DNA of 64,000 nt from Rubrobacter marinus (GTDB lineage Bacteria > Actinomycetota > Rubrobacteria > Rubrobacterales > Rubrobacteraceae), in assembly GCF_011492965.1 (NCBI RefSeq), contig NZ_CP045121.1, forward strand, positions 868,001 through 932,000, in the 5' to 3' direction. Below, piece after piece: positions 1 to 10,390 of this stretch. The notes beneath the pieces were generated by a model, which searched no databases, was not told the origin of the DNA, and saw nothing but the letters and a program-made list of their open reading frames with translations. Each line of letters opens with the position of its first letter. The stretch's first letter is position 1. A program made the position numbers and the translations under genes.

Positions 1-93
1 CCCGCATGCGACCCCCGCCGCCACGAACCCCTTCGCCGCGGCGGCCCCGCCCTCCACGGCGCTTATTCCGATTTCTGTATTTTTATTCATCAT
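1..93 (-). CDS. argJ: ArgJ, N-terminal fragment cut by the window edge
   Basis: The minus strand reads from an ATG at 93 (or the next one, at 90) to the window edge with no stop. The peptide carries AKGFVAAGVACG, which fits the A-x-GF-x-A-x-GV-x-x-G start of the ornithine acetyltransferase / N-acetylglutamate synthase family. ArgJ moves the acetyl group from N-acetylornithine to glutamate in the cyclic arginine pathway. It diverges from argC, and the first codons are unusually AT-rich because they overlap an ARG-box-like operator. Only about 31 residues are visible, so the call rests on this motif plus the arg context. Confidence 0.65.
   Translation of the reverse strand, partial: MMNKNTEIGISAVEGGAAAAKGFVAAGVACG
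74..91. promoter_or_regulatory. ARG-box-like operator 1 (ArgR site)
   Basis: The core tgtatttttattca matches 9 of the 10 fixed positions of the ARG-box consensus TGAAT-WWWW-ATTCA, and the four central bases are all A/T. It overlaps the first codons of argJ and lies about 85 bases before argC, so ArgR bound here could act on both directions. The argR gene is 1.1 kb away. Confidence 0.65.
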
Positions 94-146: not shown

Positions 147-164
147 CTTGAATAAATATCCGAG
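147..164. promoter_or_regulatory. ARG-box-like operator 2 (ArgR site)
   Basis: The core tgaataaatatccg matches 8 of 10 fixed ARG-box positions. It sits 73 bases (about seven helical turns) from operator 1 and touches the argC ribosome binding site (gagggg, 162-167), so ArgR bound here could also block translation initiation or early transcription. This is inference from sequence alone. Confidence 0.5.
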
Positions 165-174
165 GGGTGATGTA

Positions 175-1215
175 ATGGCGCGCATGGGCTTGAAGGTAGC
201 GGTTTACGGTGGCAGCGGGTACACGGGCGGGGAGCTTCTGAGGCTCCTCTCGGGGCACCCGGAGGTCGGTGGGATAGAGGTATCTTCGCGCCAGCACGCG
301 GGGAAGGTCGTGGGGGACGTCTACCCCGAGCTCGCGGTGCGCGAGACGTTCGTGGAGGCGGGTGAGATCGACGGCTCCTCGCTGGACGTGGCGTTCGTCG
401 CCTACCCGCACATGGAGAGCGCGGGGCTGGTGAAGGAGTTGCTCGCGGCCGGGACGAGGCTCGTCGTGGACCTTTCGGCGGACTTCCGGCTGCCGGACGT
501 GGCGATGTACGAGGAGTGGTACGGGCCGCACCCCGCGCCGGAGCTCCTAGAGGAGGCCCACTACGGGCTGCCGGAGGTCTTCGGGTCGCCGGAGGGCGGG
601 CGGCTCGTGGCGAACCCGGGATGTTACCCGACGGCGGCGATCCTCGCCCTCGCGCCGGTGGTGAAGCGGATCGCGGTCTCCTCCGTCTCCGTGAACGCCC
701 TCTCCGGGGTGAGCGGGGCCGGGGCGAAGCCGACGCAGAAGTCGCACTTCGTGAGCGCGAACGAGAACGTCTCGCCGTACGGGGTCAGCGGCGGGGCGCC
801 GCGCCACCGCCACACCCCGGAGATAGAGACCATGCTCAGGCGCTTCGCGCCGGGGACGCCGAACGTCACGTTCGTGCCGCACCTGCTGCCCATCTCGCGC
901 GGGGAGCTCGAGACGATCTACGTGGACCTCCCGGAGGGGGCGGAGCTGCCCGGGGCCGGGGACGTCCTCGGGTGGTTCGCGGAGGACTACGACGGCTGGG
1001 CGTTCGTCGAGGGGCGCCCGGAGGTGCCACAGATCTCGCACGTCGTCGGGACGAACCGGGCGCGGCTCTCCGTGGCGGTGGACGAGAGGGCCGGGAGGCT
1101 AGTGCTCTTCTCGGCGCTGGACAACCTCTTGAAGGGGGCGTCTGGGGCGGCCGTCCAGAACATGAACCTGGCCCTCGGGTACGCGGAGACGGCCGGGCTG
1201 GAGTACCTGAGATAG
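175..1215 (+). CDS. argC: N-acetyl-gamma-glutamyl-phosphate reductase ArgC
   Basis: This enzyme reduces N-acetylglutamyl phosphate to the semialdehyde with NADPH, the third step of arginine synthesis. The 346-residue protein has the N-terminal nucleotide-binding motif YGGSGYTGGELLRLL (about residues 11-25) and the catalytic cysteine in NPGCYPTA (Cys150), and its length is usual for the family. ATG 175 was chosen because gagggg lies 7 bases upstream; an in-frame TTG at 103 would add 24 residues unlike the family. It leads a run with argR, a GNAT-ACT gene and argG, under two ARG-box-like sites. Confidence 0.95.
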   Translation: MARMGLKVAVYGGSGYTGGELLRLLSGHPEVGGIEVSSRQHAGKVVGDVYPELAVRETFVEAGEIDGSSLDVAFVAYPHMESAGLVKELLAAGTRLVVDLSADFRLPDVAMYEEWYGPHPAPELLEEAHYGLPEVFGSPEGGRLVANPGCYPTAAILALAPVVKRIAVSSVSVNALSGVSGAGAKPTQKSHFVSANENVSPYGVSGGAPRHRHTPEIETMLRRFAPGTPNVTFVPHLLPISRGELETIYVDLPEGAELPGAGDVLGWFAEDYDGWAFVEGRPEVPQISHVVGTNRARLSVAVDERAGRLVLFSALDNLLKGASGAAVQNMNLALGYAETAGLEYLR

Positions 1216-1229
1216 CCGTGGAGGGCGAG

Positions 1230-1709
1230 ATGGGAAAGACGCAAGAAGGGGTAGACAAGGGCACCCGCCAGAACCTCATCCTCAGGCTCATCTCCGAGCA
1301 GCCTCTAGGGACCCAGGGGGACGTCGTCGAGGCGCTCGCGGGGGTCGGGGTGGAGGTCGCGCAGGGCACGGTGAGCCGCGACCTCGCCGAGCTCGGGGTC
1401 TTGAAGGTCGGCGGCCGCTACCTCGCGCTCCCCCACGAGTCGAACATGGCCGGCATCGAGGTGCTGCCGAGCTTCGTGCTGCGCGTGACCGCCGCCCAGA
1501 ACACCGTCGTCGTCCACACCCGCGACGGGACCGCGGGCGCAGTCGCGAACGTCCTGGATCGGGTGAAGGGGCTCAAGATCGTGGGTACCGTCGCGGGCCT
1601 CGACACGGTCTTCGCGGTCTCGCCCGACAACGCGGCGGCCGAGGAGGTCGCCGGCCTGATCGCCGACGTCTGCCGCGCTCGTACCCGCCCCGCGGGCACC
1701 ATCGAGTAG
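1230..1709 (+). CDS. argR: Arginine repressor ArgR
   Basis: A 159-residue arginine-sensing transcription factor. The N-terminal winged-helix region (about 1-75) includes GTVSRDLAELGVLKV, the family's DNA-recognition segment. The C-terminal part (about 85-155) has GTAGAVANVLDR and GTVAGLDTVFAV, the arginine-binding hexamerisation domain. It starts 14 bases after argC ends and is followed directly by the GNAT-ACT gene, so the repressor is probably co-transcribed with the genes it controls. The operators at 74-91 and 147-164 make autoregulation likely. Confidence 0.95.
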   Translation: MGKTQEGVDKGTRQNLILRLISEQPLGTQGDVVEALAGVGVEVAQGTVSRDLAELGVLKVGGRYLALPHESNMAGIEVLPSFVLRVTAAQNTVVVHTRDGTAGAVANVLDRVKGLKIVGTVAGLDTVFAVSPDNAAAEEVAGLIADVCRARTRPAGTIE

Positions 1710-2609
1710 TTGGTCGGAGCGAGCGGAACAGCGGCGCCCTGCCGCGTGAGGCCCGGTAACCCCGAAGACCTGGGGTTTCTGCGCGAGATGCTCTACGAGG
1801 CCTCCGGCCACAGCGACATCTCGGACCCCGCCATCTCCCTCTACCTCGAAGGCTGGGGACGGCCCGGAGACGCCGCCGTGGTCGCCCTCGACCCCGAGAG
1901 CGGCCGGAGGATAGGGGCCGCCTGGTACCGTCTGATGACCCCGGAGAGACCCGGATACGGCTTCGTCGACGCCTCGACGCCGGAGATAGCGATGGGGGTG
2001 GTCCCCGACCGTCGCGGGAGGGGCGTCGGCGGCGCCCTGCTCCCCGCCATCATGGACGCGGCCAGGGCCGAGGGGTTCGACGCCGTCAGCTTGAGCGTGC
2101 GGCGGAACAACACGGCGGCCGTGCGGCTCTACGAAAAGAACGGCTTCGTCAGGGTCGCGGAGATCGGCTTCGCGCATCCCTCGTGGGCGATGAGGGCCGA
2201 GTTGTCGCGCACGGGAGAACGGGAGCAGGCGCGTTCTCTCGAGCTGAAGAAGCTCGACGGGCGCGTGGCGGTGTGCCGGCTGGATCCCGCCTCCGGCGTC
2301 CCGGGTTGGGCGACGGGGTCGGGCCTCTTCTCCGTGACCCGTACTCCCGACGAGCTCTCGGTCGTCTGCCCGGAGGAGAACGTGCCCGCCGGCGTGAAGC
2401 ACGAAGGCGGCTGGCGCGTCCTCCGGCTGGAGGGTCCGTTCCCTTTCTCGGCGGTGGGCGTCCTGGCGTCGGTCGCGGCGCCCCTGGCCGAAGCCGGGGT
2501 GAGCATCTTCGCCCTCTCGACCTACGACACCGACTACGTGCTCGTGCGTGAAGAGGTTCTGGATCACGCCGCGTCCGTTCTGCGCGAGCGGGGGCACGAG
2601 GTTCTATGA
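1710..2609 (+). CDS. GNAT acetyltransferase fused to a CASTOR-like ACT domain
   Basis: Residues about 10-165 form a GNAT domain: the acetyl-CoA loop is seen in VVPDRRGRGVGGALL, followed by RRNNTAAVRLYEKNGFVRV. Residues about 175-299 match the ACT_7/CASTOR-type family, with LDGRVAVCRLDP, FSVTRTPDELSVVCPEE, FPFSAVGVLASVAAPLAEAG and SIFALSTYDTDYVLV. Proteins of this ACT family bind amino acids; human CASTOR1 senses arginine. The TTG start at 1710 follows the argR stop directly; GTG 1746 is an alternative. The place between argR and argG suggests an acetyltransferase whose activity responds to an amino acid, perhaps arginine. The substrate is unknown. Confidence 0.8.
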   Translation: MVGASGTAAPCRVRPGNPEDLGFLREMLYEASGHSDISDPAISLYLEGWGRPGDAAVVALDPESGRRIGAAWYRLMTPERPGYGFVDASTPEIAMGVVPDRRGRGVGGALLPAIMDAARAEGFDAVSLSVRRNNTAAVRLYEKNGFVRVAEIGFAHPSWAMRAELSRTGEREQARSLELKKLDGRVAVCRLDPASGVPGWATGSGLFSVTRTPDELSVVCPEENVPAGVKHEGGWRVLRLEGPFPFSAVGVLASVAAPLAEAGVSIFALSTYDTDYVLVREEVLDHAASVLRERGHEVL

Positions 2610-2640: not shown

Positions 2641-3861
2641 ATGCTAGAAGGCAAAAAGGTAGTGCTCGCGTACTCCGGGGGGCTCGACACCTCCGTGTGC
2701 CTGAAGTGGTTCGAGCGGCAGGGGGCGGAGCCGTACGCCCTTTACCTGGACCTCGGGCAGGGCGAGCCGGCCGTGGACGTGAAGGCCAAGGCGCTGAAGA
2801 TCGGGGCGGCCGACGCGTTCGTGCGGGACGCGAAGAAGGAGTTCGCCGAGGAGTACGTCGGACCCGCCATAAAGGCGAACGCCCTCTACGGGGGCAAGTA
2901 TCCCCTCTTCACGGCGCTCGGGCGTCCGCTCATCGCGAAGAAGATGGTCGAGGTGGCGCGCGAGGTCGGGGCGACGCACATCGCGCACGGCTCGACGGGG
3001 AAGGGGAACGATCAGGTGCGCTTCGACGTAACCACCGCCTCCATCGCCCCGGACCTTACCGTCGTGGCCCCGGTGCGCGACTGGAACATGAGCCGCCCGG
3101 AGGAGATGGCCTACGCCGAGGAGCACGGCATCCCCGTCCCGTCACCAGGGAATCCCCTACAGCGTCGACGAGAACCTCTTCGGCCGCTCCATCGAGGCCG
3201 GCCCCTCGAAGACCCGACCACGAGCCCACCCGGACGTCTACGAGATGACCACCTCTCCGGAAGAGGCCCGAACGAGCCCCGGTACGTGACGATCGGCTTC
3301 GAGGAGGGCCTGCCGGTCAGCCTCGACGGGGACGCCCTCCCGCTCGCCGAGCTGATCGCGGAGCTCAACGTCGTCGCCGGGACCCACGGGGTCGGGAGGC
3401 TCGACATGATCGAGGACAGGCTCGTCGGCATAAAGAGCCGCGAGATCTACGAGTGCCCCGCCGCCCTGACCCTCGTCCAGGCCCACAAGGAGCTCGAGAC
3501 GATGACCCTCACGAAGGACGTCCTCCGCTTCAAGGCGACCGTCGAGCAGCGCTACGCCGAGCTCACCTACGAGGGCCTCTGGTTCACCCCCCTCAAGACC
3601 GCCCTCGACGCCTTCGTCGCCGAGACCCAGGGGACCGTCACCGGCAGCGTCCGGCTCAAGCTCTACAAGGGTTCCTCGACCGTCGTCGGGCGCACAGCCC
3701 CCCACGCCCTGTACAACAAGGAGCTCGCCACCTACGACCCCAACAGCACCTTCGACGAGGCCGCCGCCGCCGGCTTCATCGCCCTGTGGGGCCTCCCGGC
3801 CCGCCAGTGGGCCGGCGTCAACGGCGGCATCGAGGTCAAGGAGAGCCCGGCCGCGAAGTAG
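2641..3861 (+). CDS. argG: Argininosuccinate synthase, with a cluster of compensated indels
   Basis: ArgG joins citrulline and aspartate using ATP. The P-loop-like AYSGGLDTS (residues 10-18), GSTGKGNDQVRF and the C-terminal domain are intact, and ggaggag lies just before ATG 2641. Between about 3140 and 3270 the reading frame carries family-unlike sequence. In the other frames the expected SVDENLFGRSIEAGP and DVYEMTTSPEEA segments appear. Single bases seem lost at about 3141, 3154, 3203 and 3268 and two at about 3230, six in total, so the frame is restored. As written the conserved substrate-binding loop is scrambled. A sequencing fault in C runs is the simplest reading; a true defect cannot be excluded. 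Confidence 0.85.
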   Translation: MLEGKKVVLAYSGGLDTSVCLKWFERQGAEPYALYLDLGQGEPAVDVKAKALKIGAADAFVRDAKKEFAEEYVGPAIKANALYGGKYPLFTALGRPLIAKKMVEVAREVGATHIAHGSTGKGNDQVRFDVTTASIAPDLTVVAPVRDWNMSRPEEMAYAEEHGIPVPSPGNPLQRRREPLRPLHRGRPLEDPTTSPPGRLRDDHLSGRGPNEPRYVTIGFEEGLPVSLDGDALPLAELIAELNVVAGTHGVGRLDMIEDRLVGIKSREIYECPAALTLVQAHKELETMTLTKDVLRFKATVEQRYAELTYEGLWFTPLKTALDAFVAETQGTVTGSVRLKLYKGSSTVVGRTAPHALYNKELATYDPNSTFDEAAAAGFIALWGLPARQWAGVNGGIEVKESPAAK

Positions 3862-3899: not shown

Positions 3900-4490
3900 G
3901 TGAATGCGAGGCACGGTCTCCCCCGTCTCCGGCCCCGGGGGCTCGGGCATGAGGGCCGAGTTCGGGGCGCCGTCCTGGAGCTGGTCCAGGGGGACATCAC
4001 GGATCAAGAGACGGACGCCATCGTGAACGCGGCCAACGCGAGGCTGGCCGGCGGGGGAGGGGTGGACGGCGCGATCCACCGCGCCGGGGGCCCGCGGATC
4101 ATGGAGGAGTGCCGGAGGCTCGGCGGCTGCCCTACGGGCGAGGCTCGCATCACCACCGGGGGCGAACTCAAAGCCCGCCACGTCATCCACGCCGTCGGAC
4201 CCGTGTACCGGGGCGGCGCCTCCGGCGAGGAGCACCTGCTCGCGAGCGCCTACCGCAACAGCCTTCGCCTCGCCGCCGAGCACGGCCTCGAGAGCGTCGC
4301 CTTCCCCTCGCTCTCCACCGGCGCCTACGGCTACCCGGTACAAGATGCCGCGGAAGTCGCGCTGCAAGCCATCGTGGAGTTTCTAGAGAACGAAAGGCAC
4401 GGGCTGGAGCTCGTCCGCTTCGTCCTCTTCGACCGCCGCACGATGGAGGCGTTCGAGGAGGCGTTCGAGCGGGTGCTTCCGAGGCATTGA
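3900..4490 (+). CDS. Macro-domain protein (probable ADP-ribosyl/O-acetyl-ADP-ribose hydrolase)
   Basis: A 196-residue protein, nearly all macro domain. It has the family signature VQGDITDQETDAIVNAAN, then GGGGVDGAIHRAGG, GEARITTGG, HVIHAVGP and the second ligand loop SLSTGAYGYP. Macro domains of this MacroD-like type remove ADP-ribose from proteins or deacetylate O-acetyl-ADP-ribose. GTG 3900 is chosen for gaggag at 3887-3892. It starts 38 bases after argG in the same direction, so it may be at the end of that transcript, though no arginine-related role is implied. Confidence 0.9.
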   Translation: MNARHGLPRLRPRGLGHEGRVRGAVLELVQGDITDQETDAIVNAANARLAGGGGVDGAIHRAGGPRIMEECRRLGGCPTGEARITTGGELKARHVIHAVGPVYRGGASGEEHLLASAYRNSLRLAAEHGLESVAFPSLSTGAYGYPVQDAAEVALQAIVEFLENERHGLELVRFVLFDRRTMEAFEEAFERVLPRH

Positions 4491-4603: not shown

Positions 4604-6043
4604 TCAGTTGCTGACCCTGTACCCCTCGCCGCACACTATCCCCTCGCGGCAGGTCGCCTGATAGTCCGGCTTGACCGCGCCGAAGTAGTAGACGTTGTAG
4701 TAGGGGTTGGGGTCCACGGGTTGGCCTATCTTCTTCGCCGCGGTGCCGGTGAAGCGGTGGTAGAGGACCTGTAGCCCCTTTCCGCCATATGGGGAGCCGT
4801 CCGAGAGGAAGTAGGGGTAGCGGTAGAAGGCCTGGTGCAGGTGCGGCTCGCCCACGGGGATGCTCGGGTCGCCCGAGTCGCCCGCGAAACCTATGATGCT
4901 CGTGTTGGTCACCCTCGCGCCCCTGTAGATGCCCCGGGCAAGCCCGTTGAGATGCGCGGACATGCTCACGTACTTGCCGTTGTCGGAGCGGATGACGACG
5001 AAGATGCCGTAGTTTTTGTGGCTGTTGTTTCGACCGGCGAAGGTCACCGTACCGCTCGCGAAGGGCGAGAAGAGCACGTCCCCCTTCCTCAAGGGGTAGT
5101 CGATGGCGAACTTGTCGTTCGTGTAGTACGTCGAGGAACATCGACCGTAGCCGAGGTTGCCGTGCGTGTACTGTCCCCAGTAGTTCGGTATACCCAACCG
5201 GGTCCAGCCGGTCCCGTTGGCATAAGCGCCATGCTGCGTCTGGACAGAGAAGGTGCTCCTCGCCCTCCAGCAGCCCTCACCGATCATGTACTCCTCGTAG
5301 ACCGGGGTAGGTTGCGCCGTTGCCGCCAGGTTGCGTACAGGCTCGGAAGACCCCTCCTGCGCCGTCTTTCGGCTCGCGGCCTCGTCCGTCGCCTCGCGCG
5401 CCTTCAGCTCTCGCTCGACGAGCGGCTTGTCACCCTGCTGCTGGAAGGTCTGGGCTCTGTCGCCGTCCGGCAGCCCCCGCAAGGAGCGGGTCGAGCGTGA
5501 CGGGGGGGCGAACTCGAGCCCCGCGAGCAACTCCTTGCCCTCGGCGTCCAGCTTCTCCTCGTACAGGTTGATCTGGTACACCCTGTTCTGGACCGGGACG
5601 TAGACCTCGATAGATGGCGTGCTGCCCGGGATCGGGCCGACCGCTACTCCCTTGTACTTCTTCTTGCCAACCGTTACGTACTGGCGCTTGACAGGGACGT
5701 CGGAGAGCTCGTCGAGCCTGTCCCGGACGGCGGACTTTATCTGGCCCGGCTTCATGTCGTAAGCCAGCGCCACGCGCACCACCGGCGTCCCGCCGTGCTC
5801 CGTCGTAGCTTTCTCTTCGGGCTGCCACAACGTGTAACCCTGAGTATCATCGATGGTGTAGCGCTCGCGCTCGAGCCGCAACTCGGCGGGGTGCGAGATC
5901 GAGGCGCCGATCTCGTCGCCCAACGTCTTCTTGATGCGCGTAGCGTTCGGATCCCGCTCCGCCTCCACGCCTGCACCGGGCATCTCCGCCCCAATGACCA
6001 CCGCCATACAAACCGCCAACAAGAGCAATGCCTTGGTGCGCAA
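4604..6043 (-). CDS. Secreted M23-like peptidase-fold protein with Lys in place of the first zinc His
   Basis: A 479-residue protein with an N-terminal signal peptide (hydrophobic KALLLLAVCMAVVIGAE), an unassigned N-terminal domain (about 40-180) and a C-terminal LytM/M23-type domain (about 300-420). In that domain Asp315, His364 and the HLH pair (His401, His403) are present, but the position of the first zinc ligand, four residues before Asp315, is Lys311 (DKFAIDY). TTG 6043 is supported by ggaggggg 4 bases upstream. A paralogue at 8984-10390 has the same substitution. It may bind zinc differently or act as a non-catalytic wall-binding or activator protein. Confidence 0.8.
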   Translation of the reverse strand: MRTKALLLLAVCMAVVIGAEMPGAGVEAERDPNATRIKKTLGDEIGASISHPAELRLERERYTIDDTQGYTLWQPEEKATTEHGGTPVVRVALAYDMKPGQIKSAVRDRLDELSDVPVKRQYVTVGKKKYKGVAVGPIPGSTPSIEVYVPVQNRVYQINLYEEKLDAEGKELLAGLEFAPPSRSTRSLRGLPDGDRAQTFQQQGDKPLVERELKAREATDEAASRKTAQEGSSEPVRNLAATAQPTPVYEEYMIGEGCWRARSTFSVQTQHGAYANGTGWTRLGIPNYWGQYTHGNLGYGRCSSTYYTNDKFAIDYPLRKGDVLFSPFASGTVTFAGRNNSHKNYGIFVVIRSDNGKYVSMSAHLNGLARGIYRGARVTNTSIIGFAGDSGDPSIPVGEPHLHQAFYRYPYFLSDGSPYGGKGLQVLYHRFTGTAAKKIGQPVDPNPYYNVYYFGAVKPDYQATCREGIVCGEGYRVSN

Positions 6044-7168: not shown

Positions 7169-7234
7169 ACGTCCGATGGACCACGCGGACCGAACCGAGA
7201 GGGCGTGGCGACCGTCGTGCCCGGAGGAGGAATG

Positions 7235-7957
7235 ATGAAACGATTGCTGCTGATGTTCGCGCTCGGCGCGATGGCCGTGGCGGCGCTCGCGCCGGCGGCC
7301 CTGGCCCAGCAACACGGCGCCGAAGAAGACGTGTTCGACTGCGCCGACTTCGCGACGCGGACGGGGGCGCAGGCCCTGCTCGGGCCGGAGGACGACTCCA
7401 AGCTCGACGACGACGGCGACGGCAAGGCCTGCGAGATCGGGCCGGACGGGAAGGCCGAAGACGGGACAAAACTGGCCGCCAAGACCGGCGGGGACCTCGA
7501 CTGCATAGACTTCCCGTCCCAGGAAGCGGCCCAGGCCAAGCTCAAGGCCAAGCCGTCCGACCCCGACGGGCTGGACCTCGACAACAGCGGTGTTGCCTGC
7601 CAGATCGTCCCCGTCCCCTACGAGGACGGCGCCAGCGACCGGACGCCCGTCGCCGCCGCGAAGTCGAAGGCCAAGCTCGACTGCGCCGACTTCGAGTACC
7701 AGCAGGAGGCGCAGATGATCCTGCTGCGCGACGAGGCCGACCCGAACGGGCTGGACGAGGACGGGAACGGCCTCGCCTGCGAGGAGGAGCTGGAGAGCTT
7801 CGCCGCCAACGAGGAGGTAGTCGAGGCGGCGCGCGCCTCTACCCACTCCGACGGCGGTCTCGACCCCTGGTTGCTCCTCGTCCTCGCGGGCGGTCTCGCG
7901 GGCCCCGGCGCGGTTGGCGTAGCCGCGTGGCGCCGCCGCGGGACTTCCGAGGGCTGA
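7235..7957 (+). CDS. Secreted protein with three Excalibur calcium-binding repeats
   Basis: A 240-residue protein. After a signal peptide ending near ALAPAALAQQ come three Excalibur-type units, each opening with DC-x-DF and closing with an acidic loop plus cysteine (DDDGDGKACE, DLDNSGVACQ, DEDGNGLACE). A C-terminal membrane segment (LDPWLLLVLAGGLAGPGAVGVA) followed by WRRRG should anchor it. ATG 7235 is 4 bases after ggaggagg. Excalibur domains bind calcium on surface proteins of actinobacteria and firmicutes. It is followed by a second protein of the same type, so the two probably work together at the envelope. Confidence 0.85.
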   Translation: MKRLLLMFALGAMAVAALAPAALAQQHGAEEDVFDCADFATRTGAQALLGPEDDSKLDDDGDGKACEIGPDGKAEDGTKLAAKTGGDLDCIDFPSQEAAQAKLKAKPSDPDGLDLDNSGVACQIVPVPYEDGASDRTPVAAAKSKAKLDCADFEYQQEAQMILLRDEADPNGLDEDGNGLACEEELESFAANEEVVEAARASTHSDGGLDPWLLLVLAGGLAGPGAVGVAAWRRRGTSEG

Positions 7958-8039: not shown

Positions 8040-8765
8040 ATGAGAAGACTAGCGCTCCTGTTCGCGCTCTGCGCGGCGGCCATCCTGGCGCTCGCGCCGG
8101 CGGCCCTGGCCCAACAGGGGACCGACCTGGACTGTTCGCAGCTCGGGGCTCCAGGATCCAGCCCCGAGGAGGCGCAGGCCGAGGCCCGGGCCATCCTCGA
8201 CGCCGACCCGGCGGACCCCAACGGCCTGGACCCCGACGGCGACGGCGTCGCCTGCGAGTTCGAGGCGTCATCGAGCGGCGAGGTCGCCTTCGAAGACGGG
8301 ACGGGCTCCGTAACCGACGTCGCCGCCGCACCGGCCCCGCGAGACGACGATCCGGACTGCGAGGACTTCGGTTCCCGGGCCGAGGCCCAGGCCGCCCTCG
8401 ACGCCGGCGCGAGCGACCTGGACGCGGACGGCGACGGCGTCGCCTGCAACGAGCTGTTCGTCGAGGAGCCCCCGCTCTCCGTGGAGGAGCCGCCCGAGCA
8501 GTACCGGGACGAGGCGTCGCCGTACCCCGGCGTCGAGGTGGCCCCCGTCACGCCGCCGCCGGGCGCCGACAGCCCCGTCTTCCAGCCGGCGGAGCCGGAC
8601 GTCGCAGAAACCGCGTCTCCCGCCTCGCCGGCGCCGCTACCGGCCGCTACCCCGAAGCAGTTACCGGCCACGGGTGGAGCCCCGCTGTCCCCTGCCCCGG
8701 CGGCCGGTGCGCTCCTGATTGGCCTCGGCGTCCTCGCGACCGCCGCTCGGAGGCGCCAAGCGTAA
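8040..8765 (+). CDS. Excalibur-domain surface protein with LPXTG-like sorting tail
   Basis: A 241-residue protein: signal peptide ending near ALAPAALAQQ (almost the same as its neighbour's), two Excalibur units (DPDGDGVACEF and DADGDGVACNE), a long Pro/Ala/Glu-rich spacer, and a C-terminal LPATGG followed by a hydrophobic stretch and RRRQA. That tail is the layout of a sortase substrate, so the protein is likely linked covalently to the wall. No sortase gene lies in this window. It is probably a gene duplicate of the upstream Excalibur gene with a different anchoring mode. Confidence 0.85.
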   Translation: MRRLALLFALCAAAILALAPAALAQQGTDLDCSQLGAPGSSPEEAQAEARAILDADPADPNGLDPDGDGVACEFEASSSGEVAFEDGTGSVTDVAAAPAPRDDDPDCEDFGSRAEAQAALDAGASDLDADGDGVACNELFVEEPPLSVEEPPEQYRDEASPYPGVEVAPVTPPPGADSPVFQPAEPDVAETASPASPAPLPAATPKQLPATGGAPLSPAPAAGALLIGLGVLATAARRRQA

Positions 8766-8824: not shown

Positions 8825-8983
8825 TCAGAGTCTTCTGCGGGATGCGTCGACCCCTGGATCTTCGGGTTCGTGCCGCCTGAACCCGGTCCCGACTGCTGCG
8901 GGCTGCGCCGTCCTTTATGAGGGGTACGGCGCGGGGTCTCAGAAGGACACTAAAACATGCAGGCGCAAAAAGGAGTAACGCGA

Positions 8984-10390
8984 ATGAACACGAGAGGTAG
9001 GGCCCGGACCCCGGGCCGGTACGCCTGCGCGATGCTCGCCGCCGCGCTGATGGCGCTGCTGATGATAGGGGCGGCTTCCCGCGAGGCCGCCGGAGAGCCC
9101 GGCGGAACCGAGCGCGCCCGAGACGCCGCGGTCGGGGCGTCGGTGTCGCACCCAGCGGGGTGGCACGTCGAGCACGAGCGCTACTCCTATGATGGGACCT
9201 ACGGCTACACCCTTTGGCGTCCTGACTCCGGGGCGGAGGAAGATCACGGCGGCACGCCCGCGGCTCGCGTCGCCCGGGTCTACGACGTCGGGGCCGGTGG
9301 GGTAGACGAGAGGGTGCGGGCGAGGATCTCCGCCCACCCGGATCTGAAGATCGAGCGCAAGGACGTCGCGGTCGGGGAGGAGGGGCTTCGGGGCGTCGCT
9401 CTCGGTCCGATCCCGGGGAGCACCCCGTCCGTGGAGGTGTACGCCGAGGAGAACGGCTCGGTCTACCAGATCAACCTGTACGGCGAGACCCTGAACGCCG
9501 AGGACGAGAAGCTGCTCTCGAGCCTGAGGTTCGAGAGGCCTTCGAAGTCGATCGACTCGCTCGGCCTGAAGGACGGGAAGAAGGCCGAGTCCCATTATGG
9601 CAGGGGCAACCCGGAGCCCTCGAAGAGGGAGCTCGAGGCGCGCCGGGCCGCCGCGGCGGGGACGACGGACGCCCCCTCGGCCTCGACGTTCGGGGCCGCG
9701 GCGCTCGCCGCGTCGTCGGTACCGGTGTACGGCGAGTCCCAGATCGAGGAGGGCTGCTGGAGGTCGGCGAGCACCTTCTTCTACCAGACCCAGCACGGCT
9801 ACGGGGCCAACAGGAGCGCCAACGGCATCGCCACCGGTTTCACCGTGCTCGGCCGTCCCAACTACTGGGGGCAGTACACCCATGGCTCCCTCGGCTACGG
9901 CCGATGCGCCTCCACCTACTACACCAACGACAAGTTCGCCATCGACTACCCCCTCGACCGGGGCGACTACGTCTTCTCGCCCTTCTCCGGTGGGACCGTC
10001 ACGTTCGCGGGTCGCAACACGTCGCACGCAAACTACGGCATCTTCGTCGTCATCAGGTCCTCGAACGGCAAGTACGTGAGCATGTCCGCCCACCTCGACA
10101 GCCTCGCCGCCGGTATCCGCCCGGGCGCCGCGGTCACCGCAGACACCGTGATCGGCTACGCCGGGGACACGGGGGACCCGAGCATCCCCGTGGGCGAGCC
10201 GCACCTGCATCAGGCCTTCTACCGCTACCCCGGCTTCAAGACCGACGGCTCGCCCTACGGCGGCCAGGGCCTGCAGGCGATCTACCACCACTACGTGGGC
10301 ACCGCCGCGGGGACCGGACCCGGCGTCTACCAGTTCGGCTGGTCAAAGACCTCGACGCAGCTGACCCAGGGGGATCGCATCAGCAACTAG
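8984..10390 (+). CDS. Secreted M23-like peptidase-fold protein, paralogue of the gene at 4604-6043
   Basis: A 468-residue protein with a signal/membrane segment (CAMLAAALMALLMIGAA) and the same layout as its paralogue: shared middle segments such as VALGPIPGSTPSVEVY and VYQINLYGETL, then a cysteine-bearing linker and the LytM/M23-type domain. Lys317 again replaces the first zinc-ligand His, while Asp321, His370, His407 and His409 are kept. ATG 8984 has aggag 8 bases upstream. Conservation of the same odd residue in both copies argues for a selected feature rather than decay. Confidence 0.8.
   Translation: MNTRGRARTPGRYACAMLAAALMALLMIGAASREAAGEPGGTERARDAAVGASVSHPAGWHVEHERYSYDGTYGYTLWRPDSGAEEDHGGTPAARVARVYDVGAGGVDERVRARISAHPDLKIERKDVAVGEEGLRGVALGPIPGSTPSVEVYAEENGSVYQINLYGETLNAEDEKLLSSLRFERPSKSIDSLGLKDGKKAESHYGRGNPEPSKRELEARRAAAAGTTDAPSASTFGAAALAASSVPVYGESQIEEGCWRSASTFFYQTQHGYGANRSANGIATGFTVLGRPNYWGQYTHGSLGYGRCASTYYTNDKFAIDYPLDRGDYVFSPFSGGTVTFAGRNTSHANYGIFVVIRSSNGKYVSMSAHLDSLAAGIRPGAAVTADTVIGYAGDTGDPSIPVGEPHLHQAFYRYPGFKTDGSPYGGQGLQAIYHHYVGTAAGTGPGVYQFGWSKTSTQLTQGDRISN

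Follow-up and report, generated by a model that had tools for sequence, protein, structure and literature searches.

A GNAT acetyltransferase joined to a CASTOR/Atu0741-type ACT module in the arginine operon of Rubrobacter marinus: a possible amino acid-set accessory enzyme

The mammalian proteins CASTOR1 and CASTOR2 are cytosolic arginine sensors composed of ACT repeats, and in CASTOR1 the guanidinium group of the ligand is held by Asp304 together with main-chain carbonyls (PMC5187391). Knowledge of CASTOR as an arginine sensor comes from animals, and the literature searched contains no characterised bacterial relative. Amino acid-regulated acetylation has been described in actinobacteria, where the protein acetyltransferases AAPatA and MaKat contain an ACT and a GNAT domain in one protein (PMC6434083). 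AAPatA has an N-terminal ACT domain with a DxPGxL motif placed between beta1 and alpha1, uses Asn or Cys as ligands and has acetyl-CoA synthetase as its target (PMC6434083). A third related group are Cg3035 and other GNAT-type N-acetylglutamate synthases (NAGS), which lie in or near arginine synthesis (PMC3827942). We analysed an open reading frame of Rubrobacter marinus with a GNAT domain followed by a CASTOR-related ACT module inside an arginine operon. The literature search returned no described bacterial CASTOR-like arginine sensor and no Rubrobacter GNAT-ACT protein; an ACT-gated GNAT is a known idea, whereas no account of its combination with a CASTOR-type module, of its place in an arginine operon or of the modular shuffling reported below was found there.

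The window (the whole stretch of DNA that was analysed, 64 kb) opens at a divergent arginine cluster, in which argF-argD-argB-argJ is read from the minus strand and argC-argR-[GNAT-ACT]-argG-macro from the plus strand. The 5' end of argJ occupies positions 1..93 (-; TIGR00120, 475.6 bits at G000:C1:866864-868057), and its operon extends beyond the window, argB, argD and argF being read downstream of argJ. On the other side, argC (175..1215, +; TIGR01850, 339.7 bits) is followed after 14 bp by argR (1230..1709, +; Arg_repressor and Arg_repressor_C), which abuts the fusion gene (1710..2609, +) with a gap of 0 bp; argG (2641..3861, +; NF001770, 494.9 bits) starts 31 bp further on, all three arg genes running in the same direction as the fusion. 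At about 3140-3290 argG has two frameshifts that compensate each other, so that about 40 residues are scrambled when compared with homologues; a sequencing error is the probable cause. Directly after argG there is a gene for a macro-domain (ADP-ribose-type) protein (3954-4490; PF01661, 157 bits), and macro-domain-like genes also follow argG in five relatives (L044, L045, L047, L048 and L049).

Two ARG-box-like operators, TGTATTTTTATTCA (76..89, +), overlapping the argJ start, and TGAATAAATATCCG (149..162, +), upstream of argC, are present in the divergent argJ/argC promoter, the position expected for members of an ArgR regulon. They are the only ARG-box-like matches (up to 3 mismatches) in the 64 kb, where 0.3 are expected by chance and two were reached in 4 of 100 shuffles, and each of the 30 relatives examined (30/30) also has a pair, with nearly equal spacing, in its divergent argJ/argC region, where the site at the argJ start keeps its offset. 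The fusion gene is therefore very likely part of an ArgR-controlled operon, to judge from these putative ArgR binding sites.

The fusion gene is one open frame of 299 aa with a TTG start directly after the argR stop, a start also found right after argR in four homologues (L044, L045, L005 and L052). Pfam matches are above the curated cut-offs for Acetyltransf_1 (PF00583; aa 45-146, 1.8e-13, 51 bits against 20.7), A9CJY8-like_N (aa 186-227, 2e-18, 66.0 bits against 27) and ACT_7 (aa 232-293, 1.4e-20, 73.3 bits against 27). The GNAT domain, delimited by Pfam, Foldseek and a 52-row alignment, covers 1740..2168 (+; about aa 11-153), and has both the GNAT fold and an acetyl-CoA loop, RGRGVG (aa 102-107; 2013..2030, +), that fits the (Q/R)xxGx(G/A) motif and in which R102, G103, G105, V106 and G107 are invariant across five fusions. 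The remainder is not a single ACT domain but a two-part module of the Atu0741 type (aa 177-299; 2238..2606, +), with A9CJY8-like_N (2265-2390) and ACT_7 (2403-2588) adjacent and in this order. The AlphaFold2 model obtained with the 52-row alignment (pLDDT 89) has a GNAT and an Atu0741 fold, whose mutual orientation is uncertain (pTM 0.62). A chance reading frame or misread domains can be discarded, because the domains match Pfam, other genomes carry fusions 74-75% identical to this one at the equivalent position, and both domains have a pairwise omega of 0.16-0.33. In the arg neighbours omega is 0.02-0.24; both GNAT and ACT are under purifying selection, yet evolve faster than the arginine enzymes.

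The ACT half resembles Atu0741 (PF21631 + PF13840; 1zhv) over the whole 123-aa module, both by sequence (E 1.8e-29 over aa 177-299) and by structure (Foldseek TMt 0.84, rmsd 2.2), and PDB sequence matches extend to CASTOR1 (about 7e-16) and CASTOR2 (1.3e-14). The first-pass annotation, made from the letters alone, had read this frame as a GNAT domain followed by an ACT_7/CASTOR-type domain, placed between argR and argG in an arginine operon; Pfam, the PDB matches and Foldseek bear out both domain identities and the CASTOR relationship, and the flanking argC, argR and argG confirm the placement. The two-part unit is homologous to half of CASTOR, and the architectures differ: CASTOR is a tandem double module without an enzyme domain that acts on GATOR2, whereas the Rubrobacter protein has a single module on an acetyltransferase, so that a CASTOR-like pocket would need a homodimer. 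Atu0741 and the other modules examined outside Rubrobacteraceae are, in contrast, stand-alone proteins.

In the alignment, Asp275 (2532..2534, +) is the equivalent of CASTOR1 Asp304, the guanidinium contact (PMC5187391). Conserved pocket residues were considered as a diagnostic for arginine and discarded, since Asp275 is invariant in every aligned module, including copies in histidine and proline contexts; it permits arginine but does not indicate it. Of 297 actinobacterial genomes sampled, 25 carry the module, including 18 from Rubrobacteraceae, and it also occurs on plasmid records next to other amino acid genes. Two of these records, from Burkholderia and Paraburkholderia (L186 and L188), encode a stand-alone Atu0741-type ACT protein after a histidine ABC transporter and hutH, which suggests a histidine-linked sensor in these Burkholderiales; on a plasmid of Peptoclostridium acidaminophilum (L185) a stand-alone ACT with a slot-like STYDTDY motif adjoins glutamate-5-semialdehyde dehydrogenase, a gene of the proline pathway, and further modules lie next to other genes. 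Within Rubrobacteraceae, three modules located elsewhere (L035, L037 and L042) have no arg genes within the fetched stretches. The module thus looks like a general amino acid-linked sensor without a fixed ligand, and because of these other neighbours, being CASTOR-like is no proof of arginine binding. The fusion could then sense another amino acid (e.g., ornithine, citrulline, glutamate or histidine) and gate the GNAT in the same way, as the histidine and proline contexts and the invariance of Asp275 would allow; we consider this unlikely, though a serious contender, because the Rubrobacteraceae slot is arginine-specific and controlled by ArgR boxes. On the basis of this operon context, arginine is probably the ligand.

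Foldseek places the GNAT half nearest to PA4866-type amino acid-analogue acetyltransferases and RimI-like enzymes, with the Pat protein of S. lividans also among the matches, and RimI is its top NCBIfam match, below cut-off. PA4866, the phosphinothricin and arsinothricin N-acetyltransferases and RimI are its closest relatives by fold and profile, although none has an ACT module and the fusion scores far below their curated cut-offs; the first three types we take to include enzymes acting on glutamate analogues. Relatives of the slot GNAT in Paenibacillus, Metabacillus, Jeotgalibacillus, cyanobacteria, Chloroflexota and Nocardia are free-standing, and neither arg genes nor an ACT module were present in their fetched flanks, barring one weak transcarbamylase-like match (L098). 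The scan used patterns taken from the GNAT part, and would thus overlook an ACT module fused to a GNAT of another type.

An acetyltransferase allosterically set by arginine, either a new feedback enzyme or a non-classical NAGS, had been proposed from the sequence. As a NAGS, the GNAT would acetylate glutamate, and arginine feedback would act through the CASTOR-type ACT module in place of the amino-acid-kinase domain that ArgA has. The operon and its operators would suit such an enzyme, as would the affinity of the GNAT to enzymes that presumably use glutamate analogues and the lack of any ArgA above cut-off in a profile search of the genome, and Cg3035 sets a precedent for NAGS of the GNAT type (PMC3827942). 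Membership of the classical ArgA or Cg3035 families was rejected, since no NAGS family cut-off is reached: the Cg3035 model (NF049894) gives 21.6 bits against a cut-off of 280, and the fusion is absent among the matches listed for the ArgA model (TIGR01890). Cg3035 itself differs from the fusion, being neither arginine-inhibited nor part of the ArgR regulon (PMC3827942). A short reading frame elsewhere in the genome (L157:1279-1785), considered as an alternative NAGS, scores a weak 26.5 bits to the ArgA model and equally weakly to others. Moreover, ArgJ is present, arg genes do not adjoin the free-standing relatives in Bacillota, Cyanobacteriota and Chloroflexota, and 16 of 32 relatives have no GNAT at this position while their arg genes stay intact, which shows that the slot GNAT is not the sole NAGS. 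The NAGS claim is thus weakened, and we rate it as rather doubtful; with argJ present and half of the slots devoid of GNAT, a NAGS at this locus would be an accessory one. Its fullest version, in which an arginine-binding CASTOR-type module gates a GNAT making N-acetylglutamate and replaces the amino-acid-kinase plus GNAT design, having been assembled repeatedly and in both orders, seems improbable.

An analogue of AAPatA, that is, an amino acid-gated protein acetyltransferase acting on an arginine enzyme or on ArgR, appears comparably doubtful. Asn- and Cys-activated AAPatA follow the same two-domain logic, including the acetyl-CoA loop (PMC6434083), and the RimI and Pat matches point the same way, but the ACT type differs, SAVGVL stands at aa 247-252 instead of DxPGxL, the GNAT is N-terminal in the window (the order of AAPatA occurs only in L038, L051 and L056) and the target is only hypothetical. 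Both this and the NAGS are special cases, with the substrate fixed, of the reading that we prefer, an acetyltransferase set by an amino acid. For its substrate, glutamate is our single best guess, held tentatively, the enzyme being then an accessory NAGS that replenishes the acetyl cycle of ArgJ; we give equal weight to a protein of the pathway, acetylated on a lysine or at its N-terminus, and another pathway amino acid seems somewhat less likely still.

We looked for relatives in whole genomes as well as in named genome contigs, and compared 32 argR-argG slots of Rubrobacteraceae. GNAT-ACT in one frame is present in 5 slots (L043, L044, L045, L046 and L005) and the reverse ACT-GNAT fusion in 3 (L038, L051 and L056), whereas the genes are split as GNAT and ACT in 3 (L047, L049 and L050) and as ACT and GNAT in 1 (L033), although some split pairs may be assembly errors. 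Both parts are thus together, fused or split and in both orders, in 12/32 slots; ACT is alone in 10 (L032, L036, L053, L054, L055, L057, L059, L060, L061 and L065), GNAT is alone in 4 (L048, L052, L058 and the degenerate L040), and 6 are empty (L064 and L066-L070). The coupling is therefore not obligatory, since either part is commonly alone in the slot. Each of the eight in-frame fusions recovered occupies the argR-argG slot (8/8). For Rubrobacteraceae this rejects a random distribution of the fusion relative to arg genes, named beforehand as the outcome that would count against the proposal, and the genome-context survey agrees with the non-random association that had been anticipated. In the named set, the fusions come from Rubrobacter or Rubrobacteraceae MAGs and from one assembly labelled just 'uncultured actinobacterium' (L087), and none was seen among the ACT examples inspected outside Rubrobacteraceae. 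In genus g12 the slot also contains an MBL-fold hydrolase (Lactamase_B_2, about 259 aa), which lies between argR and ACT in L054, L055 and L056 and between ACT and argG in L057.

The slot states are scattered over a backbone tree built from ArgC, ArgR, ArgG and ArgJ in concatenation, with ACT alone on several deep branches. Thirteen slot GNATs form one clade (100/98) and those of genus g4 fall outside. A separate GNAT recruitment in this genus (L033 and L038), suggested by the tree, is not significant, as a single clade of all slot GNATs is not rejected (AU p 0.31). L051 and L056 have sister GNAT halves (100/99), whereas their ACT halves pair with local ACT-only genes; pairing each of the two GNATs with a backbone neighbour was rejected (p 0.008 and 0.0005), as was joining the two ACT halves (p 3.5e-11). 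The AU tests were chosen after the trees had been seen. The simplest account of these trees would be that one GNAT type became joined behind two different resident ACT genes, besides the GNAT-ACT order of the window. The ACT-only proteins L053 and L057 have an N-terminus that resembles the last strand of the GNAT and, because of this apparent remnant, are probably fusions that were shortened by deletion. In genome G017 the slot is occupied by ACT, and a GNAT of the slot type, which lies near the slot clade with weak support, is encoded elsewhere.

Such a mosaic could also arise if ACT were a separate regulator of the pathway and the GNAT a passenger, the two neighbouring genes having fused by chance at an operon position that tolerates this, without allosteric coupling. 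ACT alone is the commonest slot state, also on deep branches, two GNAT-only genomes (G007 and G023) have no A9CJY8-like_N match at all, and the unrelated MBL hydrolase shares the slot in L054-L057. Nevertheless, both fusion orders, a GNAT joined to different ACTs and two constrained domains exceed what one accident would produce, and we regard this explanation as quite unlikely. Repeated joining of the same parts is the strongest evidence for functional coupling and, since the pairing was built more than once and in both orders, it is probably a feedback device.

The reading that we favour, which we place just on the likely side of even, is an accessory, ArgR-controlled acetyltransferase set by an amino acid, most likely arginine, on its CASTOR/Atu0741-type ACT module. 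At low arginine the operon would be de-repressed through the operators seen at its promoter. The ACT modules of two copies would pair and form a pocket like that between the CASTOR1 halves, and arginine bound there would change the activity of the attached GNAT, as the repeated fusion and the ACT-GNAT enzymes known elsewhere suggest. The GNAT, with its observed motif and fold, would then move an acetyl group from acetyl-CoA to an amine of the arginine pathway. The locus links a CASTOR-type module both with arginine genes and with an enzyme that has a potential activity readout, making the sensing question directly testable, and the fused, reversed, split, sensor-only and enzyme-only forms within one family offer a comparative series for allosteric coupling.

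Other genes of the window include two similar reading frames of 477-479 aa on opposite strands (4604-6043, -, and 8957-10390, +), which share an HGxLGYGRCxSTYYTNDKFAIDYPL...SMSAHL region and look like paralogous secreted peptidase-like proteins. Between them, two adjacent genes (7205-7957 and 8040-8765, +) encode secreted proteins with repeated DxDGDGxACE (excalibur-like) motifs.
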